The notes below the pieces were generated by a model that was not told the origin of the DNA, made no database searches, and was given only the letters and a program-made list of their open reading frames with translations. A program made the position numbers and the translations under genes. 29,191 bases of DNA from a virus: the IMG/VR virus record IMGVR_UViG_3300043438_000084, positions 1 to 29,191 of that record; one strand, 5' to 3'. Positions 1 to 29,191 of the stretch are shown in pieces; position 1 is the first letter of the stretch; the number at the start of each line of letters is the position of its first letter.

Positions 1-170
1 TATACTTTCAAATGAGTAACAACTATACTTTTGATATTATTGGTATACCTACATTCACACCGCTTAACAATGATTTATTAGACTACGCTGCAGGGTGGCA
101 AATGACTATCACAATGTGCGTAAATGATTGGACTGATTGTGCTGTACCTTTACTAAACAATATAGACTAA
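1..170 (+). CDS. Tail terminator-like protein, C-terminal part only (cut by window start)
   Basis: The reading frame is open from the first base (first full codon at base 3) to a TAA at 168-170, giving the last 55 residues of a protein. It matches the last 55 residues of the complete 149-residue protein at 28392-28841 with three substitutions (M/L, T/S and L/V). It is followed after 15 bases by the receptor-binding gene, exactly as at the other end of the window. The function is inferred from the full copy: a small protein directly after the tape measure gene, where tail terminator or tail completion proteins often lie. The identity of the frame is certain; the function is not. Confidence 0.8.
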   Translation, partial: YFQMSNNYTFDIIGIPTFTPLNNDLLDYAAGWQMTITMCVNDWTDCAVPLLNNID

Positions 171-174
171 TCCT

Positions 175-188
175 ACAATATAGTTATG
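175..188 (+). promoter_or_regulatory. Start-codon motif ACAATATAGTTATG, copy 1
   Basis: The 14-base string ACAATATAGTTATG ends in the start codon of the receptor-binding gene. The identical string also ends in the start codons at 6570 and 19404, and a 12-base form occurs at 28857. There is no Shine-Dalgarno sequence here. It may be a translation initiation element or a leader or promoter part. Confidence 0.5.
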
Positions 189-908
189 AGCATACCTAAC
201 AATTGGGGAGATTGGAGGCCTAACCTAACACCTCACACTGGAGATTTACAGGCAACTGATTTAATTGAGTGTACTATGATTGTGGGCGGTGTACCTGTTA
301 ACACAGCTATTACAGGCCAACAGATTATAGATGCAGCTTCGGGTGGTGGGTTAACTACTGCAGATAGGATGGTGATTGTAGGTAGAAACTCTACAGGTGT
401 AACTCTATATGCAGGTACAATTATATATATTTCGGGAAGCACTGGCAACAGGCCTAACTATGTTAAAGCACAGGCAAACACTGAGGCAACAAGTGCGGGT
501 ACTTTTGGTGTAATTGTAGCGGACATTGCTAACAACTCAGACGGTAACGCTTTAATAATTGGAACGCTAGATAATTTAGATACTAGAGCCGTAGCTACCC
601 ACCCATTTACAACTGATACTTTAGTAGATGGTGACACGCTTTATTTAAGTCCTACTGTTGCGGGTTATGTTACAAGGGTAAAACCTTCTGCACCTAATCA
701 TATTGTATATATTGGTAAGGTAATAAGAACACACCCAAATTTAGGTACTATAGTTTATAGAATTCAAAACGGTTATGAGCTTAACGAAATACACGATGTA
801 GAAATAACCTCAGTAGCAAATAATGATATAATCCAATATGATAGTGCTACGCTACTTTGGAAAAATACACAACCTTTAGATATTTTACAAATACAAATTT
901 TTTCATAA
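186..908 (+). CDS. Probable receptor-binding / tail appendage protein
   Basis: This 240-residue protein lies right after the tail module and before a lectin-like gene, the usual place for tip and fibre proteins. It has no signal peptide or membrane segment. The sequence is rich in G, T, N, V and I with short beta-strand-like stretches, for example around residues 55-130, as expected for a beta-structured virion protein. The start at 186 follows the recurrent ACAATATAGTT element and is confirmed by the second, diverged copy beginning at 28857, whose first 111 residues are identical. Its stop overlaps the next start (TAATG). I recognise the type from Bacteroidota phage genomes but cannot assign a named family, so host recognition is an inference from context. 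Confidence 0.6.
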   Translation: MSIPNNWGDWRPNLTPHTGDLQATDLIECTMIVGGVPVNTAITGQQIIDAASGGGLTTADRMVIVGRNSTGVTLYAGTIIYISGSTGNRPNYVKAQANTEATSAGTFGVIVADIANNSDGNALIIGTLDNLDTRAVATHPFTTDTLVDGDTLYLSPTVAGYVTRVKPSAPNHIVYIGKVIRTHPNLGTIVYRIQNGYELNEIHDVEITSVANNDIIQYDSATLLWKNTQPLDILQIQIFS

Positions 909-4022: not shown

Positions 4023-4982
4023 GCAAAAGATTTACCAATTTATAAAATTACCATCGACCCGCAATATGCTGAAGATGGCGAAGACTTAGGAATTGAACAA
4101 ATAGCATTCACAAATATGCCCGCCATAAAGGTTAAAGGTATGGCTTTCAATAGCGAAGTAAAGGTAATGAAGTACGCTGATGATTTGAAGTATAGAATTG
4201 TAGCACCCGCTATGATACCAATGCAAATCTACAGATGTGATGATGATGGCTTTGAATATGAAGTTGAATTTTCAGTCGCAGAGATTGAAGCTATACATGG
4301 TAAGTTTATGCAAGACATGCGTAACAAAGACTTATTTAATTTAGAGCACGATCAAAGTAAAACGGTACCCGCTTATATTCTAGAGTCTTGGATTGTAGAT
4401 AATCCTAAGCAAGATAAAGCTTATAGTACTTATGGTATTGAAGTACCAACAGGTACGCTAATGGTAACGGCTCAAGTTACTGATACTGAATACTACAACA
4501 AGCTTGTAGAAAACGACCAGGTAGGCTTTTCAATTGAAGGGTTCTTAGGTCTCAAATTAAAGGAACAATTAAAACTAAATAGTATGAACAAATTACCCGA
4601 TGGTGAACACTTAATCGAAGGTAAAGTCTATGTCGTAAAAGGCGGAGAAGTTATCGAAATTAAAGATGTGCCTGTAGAAGATGTAGCCGCTACTGAAGAA
4701 GTAGAGATGGCAGAAACAGTAGTCGAAGAAGAAGAAGTTGAAACTGAGACACCAGCAGAAGAAGAAATGGCGGTGGACCCTACAGCAGATGCAGAAGCAA
4801 TTTTAGCTATAGTAACTCCTGTTATCGAAGAGCAGGTTAATCAATTGCTTGCAATTATTGCAGACTTGAAAAACCAATTTGAAGAAGCAATGGTTACAGA
4901 AACAACAGAAGAACTAATGAGCGAAAATGTAGCTTTGTCTGTTCACGAAAAATTTAAAGCGTATAATAAATTAAACAACTAA
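4020..4982 (+). CDS. Prohead protease (XkdF-like, S78_2 type) fused to scaffold-like C-terminus
   Basis: This 320-residue protein removes scaffold during head maturation. Residues 30-190 match the XkdF-like serine protease family: the stretch around NLEHDQSK (His110) and VGFSIEGFLG (Ser171) supplies the expected His and Ser catalytic residues. In between is AYILESWIVDNPKQD and GTLMVTAQVTD, typical of the family. Residues 215-255 are extremely acidic (runs of E with EVEMAETVVEEEEVETE). They lead into a helical segment (VTPVIEEQVNQLLAIIADLKNQFEEA) that would suit an internal scaffold. The major capsid gene follows after 12 bases, the usual order. The family call is strong; the scaffold role of the tail is inferred. 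Confidence 0.88.
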   Translation: MAKDLPIYKITIDPQYAEDGEDLGIEQIAFTNMPAIKVKGMAFNSEVKVMKYADDLKYRIVAPAMIPMQIYRCDDDGFEYEVEFSVAEIEAIHGKFMQDMRNKDLFNLEHDQSKTVPAYILESWIVDNPKQDKAYSTYGIEVPTGTLMVTAQVTDTEYYNKLVENDQVGFSIEGFLGLKLKEQLKLNSMNKLPDGEHLIEGKVYVVKGGEVIEIKDVPVEDVAATEEVEMAETVVEEEEVETETPAEEEMAVDPTADAEAILAIVTPVIEEQVNQLLAIIADLKNQFEEAMVTETTEELMSENVALSVHEKFKAYNKLNN

Positions 4983-4994
4983 ATAAAAAACAAA

Positions 4995-13256: not shown

Positions 13257-13441
13257 ACCAGCGCAGGATGTTAAGAGTAATCAAGCTCATTGAATTTTTA
13301 AAGATTAAACCTAGACCTATAAGCTCAATGTCACGATACTTAGAAATAAGTGAACGGTCAGTTTATAGATACCTAAAGATGTACGAGCAACTAGGGTACA
13401 AATTAAACAAAGATAAATACAATAAATATTTTTTAAAATGA
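13253..13441 (+). CDS. Winged-helix/HTH DNA-binding protein (HTH_11-like)
   Basis: This 62-residue protein consists of little more than one DNA-binding domain. Helix 1 is LRVIKLIEFLKI, helix 2 is SSMSRYLEI, the recognition helix is SERSVYRYLKMYEQLG, and the short wing is YKLNKDKYNKYFLK. This is the DeoR/HTH_11 layout ('i..la..leiS.rtvyRyl..l...Gy.i....'). It overlaps both neighbours by four bases, so it is coupled to the DnaA-like gene. A likely role is control of early transcription, perhaps at the palindromes at 11578-11634 or the promoters at 11749 and 16287. The targets are inferred. Confidence 0.7.
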   Translation: MNQRRMLRVIKLIEFLKIKPRPISSMSRYLEISERSVYRYLKMYEQLGYKLNKDKYNKYFLK

Positions 13442-13791
13442 GCAGAATAGACGAAATAAAACAAGTGATAATTGAAGAAGGCTTACACCTACCCAATAGA
13501 CAAAGAGACAAAGTTTACCGTAGGTTCTACTTAGCTCACCTGTTACGCAAAGAAAAGTTAATGCTTAGAGAGATTGGAGAGATATTTAACAAGTCACATG
13601 CAACAATGATACATTCAATTGAAAGCCATAAGCACTGGCATAGGGTAAGAGACGAGCAGTATTTAAATGTAACTTTAGATTTAAGAGAACGCTTCCCTAT
13701 TCGTGTTACACTAAGACAGGAAATACTTAAAGTAAATTCAATGCGTGAATTAACTGATTTAAAAAAGAAAATAAAAAACTTTTTGTATTGA
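13438..13791 (+). CDS. DnaA domain IV-like DNA-binding protein
   Basis: This is a 117-residue protein. Residues 28-65 carry the DnaA C-terminal signature: YLAHLLRKEKLMLREIGEIF followed by NKSHATMIHSIESHK. This parallels the 'lr.IG..FggRdHsTVihai' helix-turn-helix of bacterial DnaA domain IV. The AAA+ ATPase domains are absent, so it can bind DNA but not melt it by itself. In phages such proteins may compete with or recruit host initiator, or act as regulators. It is the last gene before the structured leader and the replication organizer, which supports a replication role. The domain call is good; the function is inferred. Confidence 0.75.
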   Translation: MSRIDEIKQVIIEEGLHLPNRQRDKVYRRFYLAHLLRKEKLMLREIGEIFNKSHATMIHSIESHKHWHRVRDEQYLNVTLDLRERFPIRVTLRQEILKVNSMRELTDLKKKIKNFLY

Positions 13792-13798
13792 TGCAACT

Positions 13799-13824
13799 TT
13801 GTATTAAATAAATTCGTATATTAG
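13799..13824 (+). promoter_or_regulatory. Weak candidate promoter before the structured leader
   Basis: TTG at 13799-13801 and TATATTAG at 13817-13824 (one mismatch to TAnnTTTG) are separated by 15 bases, shorter than usual. A transcript from here would start at about the first base of the structured region, which is the main reason to list it. Confidence 0.25.
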
Positions 13825-13828
13825 CAGA

Positions 13829-13928
13829 CCCAGTGCAGGGGCATAAAAAACTTTATTAGAAACCTCTTTGGCGATTAGGGCTGCACTCCCGAAAGTTGAA
13901 GGGGTTTTATCATTTTAAGTGCAGTACT
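13829..13928 (+). ncRNA. Structured, pseudoknot-capable leader RNA of the replication organizer gene
   Basis: A hairpin is formed by 13859-13869 with 13898-13908 (core AAACCTCTT/AAGGGGTTT, with G-U extensions). It is continued by GGG 13878-13880 with CCC 13888-13890 and closes a seven-base loop CTGCACT (13881-13887). That loop is perfectly complementary to AGTGCAG at 13832-13838 and to a second identical AGTGCAG at 13918-13924, four bases before the start codon. AACTTT (13849-13854) also complements AAAGTT (13892-13897) in the internal loop. The two rival partners suggest a switch that could hide or expose the start site. This is my pairing by eye; no known RNA family is recognised. Confidence 0.5.
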
Positions 13929-14597
13929 ATGGCAGAAAACAAAAAGGGCTTTATTCTTTACGCCGACCAAAAAGAACTATTTTCACAACTTCCTGATGAA
14001 ATTGCGGGTAAATTAATCAAACATATAATGGCTTATGTTAATGATGAAAATCCTATAAGTGATGATATTTTAATCAATATTGCATTTACACCTATTAAAC
14101 TACAGCTAAAAAGAGACCTTGTTAAATTTGAGGAAACTAAAGATAGGCGTAGTGTTGCAGGTAAAATAGGTGCTGAGAAAAGATGGCAAAGTATAGCAAA
14201 CGATGGCAATCGCATAAATGGTATAGCAAACGATAGCAAACCAAAGCAAACGATAGCAAAAATAGCTGTTAAAGATAATGTTAATGTAAAAGATATACAT
14301 ATATATAGTTTTTATGATTCTTTAATTGAATATGGATTTAAAAAGGATTTAGTTAACGATTGGTTAGAAGTTAGAAAATCTAAAAAATTAACAAATACTA
14401 AAACTGCCTGTGATAAATTTATTATTGAGGTAGAAAAATCTAAACTAGATAAAAACGAAATATTAAAAATGTGTGTTGAAAAAAGTTGGGGAGGGTTTCA
14501 AAATAGTTGGCAATTAAAAAATGAACAAGCAGAAGCTTCAAGCGATGATATTTTATACAACCATCTTATGGCACACGCAGCAAAATATTCAAAATGA
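13929..14597 (+). CDS. Replication organizer/initiator (DUF6291-like)
   Basis: This is a 222-residue protein. The ATG at 13929 (MAENKKGFILYADQKELFSQLP) is chosen over a TTG at 13896 that lies inside the leader hairpin. Residues 1-80 match DUF6291: FILYADQKELFSQLPDEIAGKLIKHIMAYVNDE and FTPIKLQLKRDLVKFEE, then the RRSVAGKIGAEKRWQ linker. Residues ~120-200 are a helical C-terminal domain ending WGGFQNSWQL, as in phage replisome organizers. Between the two lies a 10-bp repeat array in the DNA, as initiator genes of lambda O type carry their origin. The next gene is a RecA-fold ATPase. The initiation role follows from family and context. Confidence 0.75.
   Translation: MAENKKGFILYADQKELFSQLPDEIAGKLIKHIMAYVNDENPISDDILINIAFTPIKLQLKRDLVKFEETKDRRSVAGKIGAEKRWQSIANDGNRINGIANDSKPKQTIAKIAVKDNVNVKDIHIYSFYDSLIEYGFKKDLVNDWLEVRKSKKLTNTKTACDKFIIEVEKSKLDKNEILKMCVEKSWGGFQNSWQLKNEQAEASSDDILYNHLMAHAAKYSK
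14181..14262 (+). repeat. 10-bp tandem repeat array (candidate origin iterons) inside the organizer gene
   Basis: In register from 14181, successive 10-base blocks end in (A/G)GCAA(A/T) at 14181, 14191, 14201, 14221, 14231, 14241 and 14251. One degenerate block lies at 14211 and a partial one at 14261. The best unit is CGATAGCAAA. The period is one helical turn, so all sites face the same side. An A/T-rich stretch free of GC clusters follows (about 14262-14360), as expected for a DNA-unwinding element. Confidence 0.65.
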
Positions 14598-15502
14598 TAC
14601 AGCAAAAAGGAAGCTCAATTAATTACTTGCTAGATTATCGTAACGGCAAAATAAAACAAGGCTTAGGATTAGATTGTCCACTAGATGATAATTTAAGATT
14701 TAAACCTAAACAACTAAATATTATTTTGGGCCACGATAATGTAGGAAAAACTTATTGGATAACCTGGTACTTTTTAGCACTTGCAATTAAACAAAATTTA
14801 AAGTTTATAATTTGGAGCGGTGAAAATCAAAGCGGACAATTAATGCGTGATATGATACAAATGTATTCAGGCAAACCATTTAAAGAGCTTACAGAAAAAG
14901 ATATACATAGCTATTCAACTTATTTAGAACAGTACTTTGACTTTGTAGATAATTCAAAACTTTATAAGCCTGAAGAACTATTGGCTATTTTTGGTAACTC
15001 AAATGCAGATGCTTGTCTTATTGATCCATTTACAGGATTAGATAGAGACTTAACTTATGAAGGTAACTACAGGTTTTTAAATATGGCTAGACAATTTGTA
15101 AACAATACAGGAAAAACAATCTACATAAACACGCACCCTAATAGTGAAAGTGGTAGAAGTGGTAATCTATACCCTGAGCAGCACCATTGGAAAGGACATC
15201 TTAAACCACCATTAAAGGACCACATAGAAGGAGGTAAAGCATTTTTAAATAGGTGTGATGATATGTTTGTAATTCATAGATTAATTAAGCATAAGGATAT
15301 GAAGTTTTTGACTATGATAGGTGTAGAAAAAATCAAAGATATGGACACTGGAGGTAAGCACACTGAATTAGAATTACCTGTTCTTTGTGAATTTAATAGA
15401 GGCTTAGGCTTTACGATTGGAGGTGTTGACCCTTTAAAAAAACACAGGCCAAAACAAAAATTAACAATGATAGAAAGAAAATTAAACGACTTACCATTTT
15501 AA
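14594..15502 (+). CDS. RecA-fold replicative ATPase (RepA/DnaB-like helicase)
   Basis: This is a 302-residue protein. Walker A is GHDNVGKT (residues 46-53, Lys52 and Thr53), followed by IIWSGENQSGQLMRDMI. Walker B is ACLIDPFTGLD (Asp144), and a sensor-like strand TIYINTHPNSE follows. The layout and length match RepA/DnaB-like hexameric helicase domains (AAA_25 type) of phages. It is coupled by ATGA to the organizer gene, so the pair likely forms the initiator and helicase. The extreme C-terminus, KLNDLPF, resembles an SSB-type acidic tip, which is unusual for a helicase. Confidence 0.8.
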   Translation: MIQQKGSSINYLLDYRNGKIKQGLGLDCPLDDNLRFKPKQLNIILGHDNVGKTYWITWYFLALAIKQNLKFIIWSGENQSGQLMRDMIQMYSGKPFKELTEKDIHSYSTYLEQYFDFVDNSKLYKPEELLAIFGNSNADACLIDPFTGLDRDLTYEGNYRFLNMARQFVNNTGKTIYINTHPNSESGRSGNLYPEQHHWKGHLKPPLKDHIEGGKAFLNRCDDMFVIHRLIKHKDMKFLTMIGVEKIKDMDTGGKHTELELPVLCEFNRGLGFTIGGVDPLKKHRPKQKLTMIERKLNDLPF

Positions 15503-28395: not shown

Positions 28396-28841
28396 TAAGT
28401 CTACAGGCCTTAATAAACGAAATAAAAACTTTTTACGATGGACATTTACAAGTTAAGAAGTTTGGCTGTGATTTCAAAGAGCAGTTATTTAACTTTGCTA
28501 CTAAAGATGAGCGTTACCCTATTGTGTTTGCTGTACCTAATGGAGCGACACCTACCGAAAATACTACTGAATTTACTTTTGATATTTATTGTTTTGATAT
28601 AATACAAAAAGATAGGGCTAACATACAGGTAATACTTTCAGATTGTCACCAAATATTAAACGATCTATATGTATACTTTCAACTAAGTAATAACTACACT
28701 TTTGATATTATCGGTATACCTACTTTCACACCGCTTAACAATGATTTATTAGACTATGCAGCAGGGTGGCAAATGAGTATAACAATGTGCGTAAATGATT
28801 GGACTGATTGTGCTGTCCCTTTAGTAAACAATATAGACTAA
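28392..28841 (+). CDS. Tail terminator-like protein (complete copy)
   Basis: This 149-residue protein is coupled by ATGA to the tape measure gene. It has a helical start (ISLQALINEIKTFYDGHLQVKKFGCDF), beta strands (YPIVFAVPNGATP, TEFTFDIYCFDII), a helix (NIQVILSDCHQILNDLYVYF) and final strands (WQMSITMCVND). This alpha/beta layout and size fit the small tail terminator/completion proteins that cap the tube. A diverged copy of its last 55 residues begins the window. The function is inferred from fold rhythm and position. Confidence 0.55.
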   Translation: MISLQALINEIKTFYDGHLQVKKFGCDFKEQLFNFATKDERYPIVFAVPNGATPTENTTEFTFDIYCFDIIQKDRANIQVILSDCHQILNDLYVYFQLSNNYTFDIIGIPTFTPLNNDLLDYAAGWQMSITMCVNDWTDCAVPLVNNID

Positions 28842-28847
28842 TAGACT

Positions 28848-28859
28848 AATATAGTTATG
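28848..28859 (+). promoter_or_regulatory. Start-codon motif AATATAGTTATG, copy 4
   Basis: This is the 12-base core of the recurring element and ends in the start codon at 28857. The bases upstream of it differ from copy 1, although the core is unchanged between the two diverged copies of this region. That suggests the core is under selection. Confidence 0.5.
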
Positions 28860-29191
28860 AGCATACCTAACAATTGGGGAGATTGGAGACCTAACCTAAC
28901 ACCTCACACAGGTGATTTACAGGCAACTGATTTAATTGAGTGTACTATGATTGTAGGCGGTGTACCTGTTAATACAGCTATTACAGGCCAACAAATTATA
29001 GATGCAGCTTCGGGTGGTGGGTTAACTACTGCCGATAGGATGGTGATTGTAGGTAGAAACTCTACAGGCGTAACTCTATATGCGGGAACTATTATATATA
29101 TTTCGGGAAGCACAGGTAACAGACCTAACTATGTTAAAGCACAGGCAAACACTGAGGCAACAAGTGCGGGTACTTTTGGCGTAATTGTAGC
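28857..29191 (+). CDS. Probable receptor-binding protein, N-terminal part (cut by window end)
   Basis: The first 111 codons are open to the last base and encode the same residues as the gene at 186, with 15 base differences, all synonymous. It starts after the AATATAGTT element. The rest lies outside the window, or equals the gene at 186 if the molecule is circular. Confidence 0.85.
   Translation, partial: MSIPNNWGDWRPNLTPHTGDLQATDLIECTMIVGGVPVNTAITGQQIIDAASGGGLTTADRMVIVGRNSTGVTLYAGTIIYISGSTGNRPNYVKAQANTEATSAGTFGVIV

Follow-up and report, generated by a model that had tools for sequence, protein, structure and literature searches.

Does a phage leader RNA in which one seven-base loop has two perfect partners, one upstream and one just before a start codon, act as a switch on the gene behind it, and if so at which step of expression? 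The question arose from a first-pass annotation of a 29-kb virus record (the window, that is, the whole 29,191-nucleotide stretch analysed; all coordinates are on its given strand, and all features named lie on the plus strand). The three 7-nt elements on which that proposal was built are located as it had them: L1 (13832–13838), L2 (CUGCACU, 13881–13887) and S (AGTGCAG, 13918–13924), the last a copy of L1 and thus a second candidate partner of L2. S spans −11 to −5 relative to the ATG at 13929, with 4 nt between it and the start codon of a DUF6291 gene (13929–14597; Pfam PF19808, E 4.5e-21) for a putative replication initiator or replisome organizer, which also matches PHROG primosomal protein and O-like initiation profiles. 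The next gene of the replication operon (14594–15502; phrog_18375 and phrog_19) encodes a DnaB-like or primase-helicase-type ATPase. Directly 5′ of the leader lies the gene for a small protein that resembles DnaA domain IV and lacks the ATPase part (13438–13791; Pfam Bac_DnaA_C, E 3e-6, under the curated cut-off), and annotated DnaA proteins are likewise encoded upstream of the leader in Cellulophaga phages phi19:3 and phi13:2. The ends of the window (1–300 and 28672–28971) form a direct repeat of 300 nt at 93% identity, a value that excludes simple assembly overlap.

The leader opens with a promoter-like −7 element, TATATTAG (13817–13824), which differs at one base from the TATATTTG of most homologues and holds the same position relative to the first hairpin as it does there. 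The Bacteroidota −7 box is TAnnTTTG, and a sigma-70 promoter scan of the window leader gave no match, as expected for a box of this type; the predicted RNA would start a few nucleotides 3′ of TATATTAG. Hairpin P1 follows (13829–13841), with CCC and GGG enclosing the loop AGUGCAG, which is L1. Hairpin P2 (13859–13908, computed fold energy −17.9 kcal/mol) has outer arms at 13859–13872 and 13895–13908 and a GGG/CCC inner stem (13878–13880/13888–13890) that closes the 7-nt loop L2. The hairpin, the inner stem and the loop had been recognized at first pass, but the outer stem, given there as about 11 bp, folds as 14 pairs, and it had gone unnoticed that L1 is itself a 7-nt hairpin loop. Because both partners are loops, the L1–L2 core is a loop–loop, or kissing, contact of 7 bp (13832–13887). 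A U-rich stretch, UUUUAUCAUUUUA (13905–13917), comes after P2; a run of 5–8 U stands there in most homologues, and the run of the window, being interrupted, was not called by a strict terminator scan.

Taken alone, the window sequence gives weak evidence for any of this, its elements lying near chance level: the leader folds no better than its shuffles (z = +0.95), and an equally good helix occurs in 12 of 100 shuffles of the region. Single-sequence folding was dropped as evidence for this reason. A further six-base match, AACTTT/AAAGTT (13849–13854/13892–13897), which the first-pass annotation had put forward as an additional link, is present in the letters and is not kept in homologues, and we treat it as a chance match. 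It is the homologues that lift the case far beyond chance. DUF6291 homologues were gathered from viral contigs, named phages and bacterial genomes, and the regions 5′ of their start codons were compared. In the layout they share, a promoter element resembling TATATTTG is followed by P1 and its loop L1; a linker leads to P2 and its loop L2, and a T run and 20–30 nt come between P2 and the ATG. The L1/L2 pairs vary by phage (for example GCTCTCAC/GTGAGAGC, CAATCGAC/GTCGATTG, TTGGGG/CCCCAA and GCGTATCCGT/ACGGATACGC). In 61 cluster representatives, picked by promoter and T run with no use made of complementarity, we measured the longest exact complement joining the L1 and L2 stretches. Its mean is 7.48 nt for own pairs and 5.26 nt when leaders are swapped, and not one of 20,000 permutations attains the observed mean. 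In a type-I alignment of 27 leaders of one subtype, L1 and L2 change jointly with pairing kept: 94.4% of the kissing cells are standard pairs and 67 cells carry double changes, against 22.4 in shuffles, and sliding the partner by 1–3 columns lowers the pairing to 27–40%.

An independent scan of viral contigs with a conserved-backbone pattern, in which neither the loops nor the T run were specified, returned 80 contigs, each with a kissing helix 7 nt or longer. The 55 distinct leaders among them all have 8–9 exact L1–L2 pairs and a run of 5–8 T after P2 (55/55 in both cases); of swaps between leaders of different alleles, 12% attain 7 nt. Counts from an earlier descriptor are partly circular, as it demanded P2 and the U-run, which leaves the 55-leader pattern set unaffected. 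Helix length ranges from 6 to 10 bp among leaders. RNAalifold, run on a mixed type-II alignment, recovered the L1–L2 segment alone, since the kissing pairs compete with P1 and P2 in nested folding. By these comparisons the predicted L1–L2 kissing contact is the universal core of the leader. The 55 leaders carry 11 discrete kissing alleles, which recur before different initiator genes. Two leaders (L059, 1644–1741, and L042, 2629–2725) have the same kissing sequence with the arms exchanged (GTGAGACG/CGTCTCAC vs CGTCTCAC/GTGAGACG), and a leader-like region before a DUF6291 gene of Pedobacter sp. Leaf170 (L144, about 4868–4990) contains an unusually long perfect complement of 18 nt.

The nested stems around the loops covary as well. 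In the type-I alignment P1 (helix 1) is paired in 84% of cells, with all five pairs changed on both sides, and both P2 stems, the apical one included (helices 3 and 4), behave likewise, which argues for RNA; the first-pass view of an RNA leader ahead of a phage replication initiator gene is thus borne out by the comparison of homologues. That the repeats are instead sites in DNA for a replication or regulatory protein, for example at an origin, would agree with their being short and inverted and with the DnaA domain IV-like gene upstream. We hold it to be highly improbable, for stems with G–U pairs covary around the repeats, the loops coincide exactly with the paired segments, and the repeats lie between a promoter-like element and a U-run. 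The arrangement of a terminator-like hairpin with its U-run between promoter and gene, seen in 55 of 55 pattern-found leaders, is that of an attenuator, and this makes transcription attenuation no less likely than a switch acting purely on translation; in the window phage, where the U-run is interrupted, translational control may weigh more. The RNA encoded by HK022 put is a processive antitermination RNA, and a put-like element modifying RNA polymerase could equally present two hairpins at the start of an early operon. Such an element is very unlikely here, however, a U-run right after P2 being the opposite of what it needs.

The leader is found well beyond DUF6291 genes. While it does precede these, as had been noted at first pass, it heads replication operons of several initiator families. 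In Cellulophaga phages phi19:3 and phi13:2 it lies directly before the DUF6291 gene, and in the Flavobacterium Moomin phages, elemoC and Olleya Harreka_1 it lies upstream within the operon; a type-I covariance model often finds it at the operon head where DUF6291 has no adjacent leader. Only about a quarter of the 80 pattern loci have DUF6291 as the next gene. The others encode initiator-like proteins starting MSGW, SKELPFF or MNSYEL, or DUF6291-like proteins of the FYRS type, and the gene after the initiator type is mostly that of a DnaB-like helicase. From their position and general appearance we infer that the non-DUF6291 types are putative initiators, with at most weak winged-helix matches in Pfam. 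Of about 790 Bacteroidota genomes searched with the type-I model, 2 gave a match, which points to an element mainly of free phages.

Neither an Rfam search of the window and 20 loci (no match above the gathering threshold) nor blastn against named phages (no close DNA relatives of the leader) nor the literature on DUF6291 or a matching RNA, in which we found nothing, linked the leader to anything described. The element thus appears to be an undescribed RNA family, in agreement with the first-pass annotation, built on the already known general principle of leader-encoded pairing control of replication genes. One might suppose that the leader binds a protein or ligand, as in autoregulation by a replication protein or in a riboswitch, with the kissing contact merely shaping the binding site. 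In leader types II and III, L2 is indeed flanked by conserved unpaired residues, AGUA opposite GAA, that resemble a bulged-G (loop E) motif. At 13876–13894, however, the window has AUUA, no invariant core is large enough for a typical aptamer, and the same leader stands on operons with unrelated initiator families, so that the initiator itself is unlikely to be the ligand. We regard a binding leader of this kind as unlikely.

The start-site copy S calls for separate treatment. In 12 of the 61 leaders, the last 26 nt ahead of the ATG contain a match of at least 6 nt to the leader's own L1, the maximum over 20,000 permutations being 6 (0/20,000 reach the observed count); two of the twelve (L375 and L025) are unconvincing as leaders, which leaves ten clusters. 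The versions are AGTGCAG in the window, GTGCAG, ATGCAG, AGGCAG, AAGCAG, GTTGCAG, GTCGCAG, CTTCGAC, ACGACC, GGTATCA and, in L101, CACTACAC, so that S matches its own L1 across lineages of differing sequence. Close relatives with GTTGCAG (L113 and L296) and GTCGCAG (L088 and L283) differ by the same base change in all three elements. At other gene starts of the same loci there is no excess of S-like sites (16 vs 15.2 expected). The exception is L024, in which TTAGCAGC precedes the leader-adjacent gene, S standing there instead of at DUF6291. A scan of viral contigs for S with its start codon (TGCAGTAAAATGGC) returned mostly unrelated contigs, and its hits were set aside as chance matches. On this evidence S is a genuine predicted second partner of L2 in a minority of lineages. 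The first-pass proposal of two real alternative partners for one loop therefore holds, L1 and S both covarying with L2 in homologues, and the start-site copy it described is real, but S is no general feature, in contrast to the universal loop–loop contact. On a DUF6291 tree, built from few columns, it takes about 18 gains or losses to account for the distribution of S, six or more of them forced by supported branches, and recombination between the leader and the DUF6291 gene is likely.

What pairing at S would do follows from its place. Translation initiation in F. johnsoniae relies on upstream adenines and low structure, not on Shine–Dalgarno pairing (PMC9976891), and by this rule a 7-bp helix at −11 to −5 should repress. 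The direction given at first pass, in which L2 held by L1 leaves the start free and L2 on S hides it, is plausible. The calculated energies in the window, which ignore loop geometry, are −11.4 kcal/mol for L1–L2 and −13.2 kcal/mol for S–L2; they are comparable, as a switch requires. A translational switch acting purely in cis, with no role for termination, would draw on these similar energies and on the constant linker and spacing in S-bearing phages, where S sits 20–28 nt 3′ of the U-run. Yet most leaders are without S and still keep both L1–L2 and the U-run, which rules out L2–S as the core function, and S is retained far from the leader in four contigs; we find a switch of this purely translational kind improbable. 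In those contigs (L103, L131, L202 and L205) a cassette of metabolic-type genes separates DUF6291 from the leader, some 1.8 kb upstream of it, and the matching S is kept before DUF6291 and absent before the leader-adjacent gene. This leans towards pairing in trans, and a released leader would be the simplest account of a distal S, although the four contigs may share one event; long-range cis pairing or a recent insertion is a possible alternative. The same cassette (an 87–88 aa protein, a MazG-like and a nuclease-like one) stands between leader and initiator in L103 (1207–2978), L131 (1264–2881), L398 and L469, phages with different initiator types. One cassette protein in L103 and L131 resembles, by eye, thymidylate synthase.

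A trans-acting antisense RNA following the logic of P4 CI and P1 C4 would make the leader a terminated or processed, diffusible molecule whose L2 represses S and L1 RNAs that share its specificity; copy control or superinfection exclusion would result. The three-element logic, the distal S with its matching L2 and the small number of discrete loop alleles all speak for it. On the other side, the leader-bearing Moomin phages are virulent isolates (PMC7077304), so lysogenic immunity does not apply there and is not a general role, and the kissing positions do not outpace P1 or the apical P2 stem in their rate of change. Since these stems are equally variable in the type-I alignment, hypervariable kissing arms were rejected as a sign of selection for specificity. 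Antisense control of this kind is a possibility that we entertain tentatively.

The reading that we favour, with slightly more confidence than doubt, is that the leader attenuates the replication operon and that in some phages L2–S pairing also blocks initiator translation, the two acting as a brake on the timing or copy number of replication. The transcript would begin with P1 presenting L1, followed by P2 presenting L2; the loops form the predicted kissing helix, and a U-run follows P2. P2 with the U-run would be an intrinsic terminator, so that the leader attenuates the operon and frees a short RNA of about 100 nt, and the kissing contact may set P2 folding or termination. L2, when free of L1, could pair with S either in cis on the read-through mRNA or in trans from the freed leader, and in S-bearing phages this pairing would block translation of the initiator. 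The net outcome would be a brake on initiator synthesis and with it on the timing or copy number of phage replication. A further extension, which we think rather doubtful, is a diffusible replication-control RNA in virulent Bacteroidota phages, in which L2 of the terminated leader would repress initiator mRNAs and leaders of the same loop type. If this is true, loop alleles would sort lytic phages into incompatibility or superinfection groups, perhaps amounting to RNA-based competition between virulent phages. The leader appears, in any case, to form a widespread family on Bacteroidota phage replication operons, cultivated phages included, across initiator families. Its natural L1/L2 variants are ready-made compensatory mutants and make it a tractable case of RNA control of phage replication initiation in hosts without Shine–Dalgarno use.

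Several known systems resemble parts of this design. In ColE1 replication control, RNA I and RNA II meet through fully complementary 7-nt kissing loops, and both window loops are likewise exactly 7 nt and fully complementary; the ColE1 loops, however, lie on separate transcripts from opposite strands, whereas those of the leader belong to one RNA. As in the repZ leader of IncI and IncB plasmids, the RNA precedes an initiator gene and has a loop that pairs near the initiator start. The repZ pseudoknot reportedly activates translation, and an opposite-strand antisense RNA is said to repress it. At the leader, by contrast, there is no sign of an antisense gene, and repression would be the more likely result of pairing at S. 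For the plasmid pseudoknot we refer to Asano and Mizobuchi 1998, by its title as cited in PMC10286972. The loops of the C4 RNA of P1 and P7 are aimed at the ribosome binding site of ant (PMC12197685), and similarly the leader loop is complementary to a ribosome-binding stretch on the same transcript (L2–S in the window and about ten other versions). The C4 target is an antirepressor and that of the leader a replication initiator. The C4 model RF01695 matched none of seven records at E up to 10, and membership in C4 or another Rfam family was rejected as no model matched. The P4 CI RNA has two pairing sites, seqA upstream and seqC downstream, and by pairing with them it terminates transcription of the replication genes (PMC4825925). 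CI, a processed RNA, acts by early termination in the lysogenic state, unlike the leader, which is known from sequence, has a kissing hairpin as its upstream site and the start region of a protein gene as its downstream one, and belongs to Bacteroidota phages, some of them virulent. The likeness is one of layout logic: in the S-bearing subset, as in P4, a central element is complementary to both an upstream and a downstream site in the leader of a replication gene.
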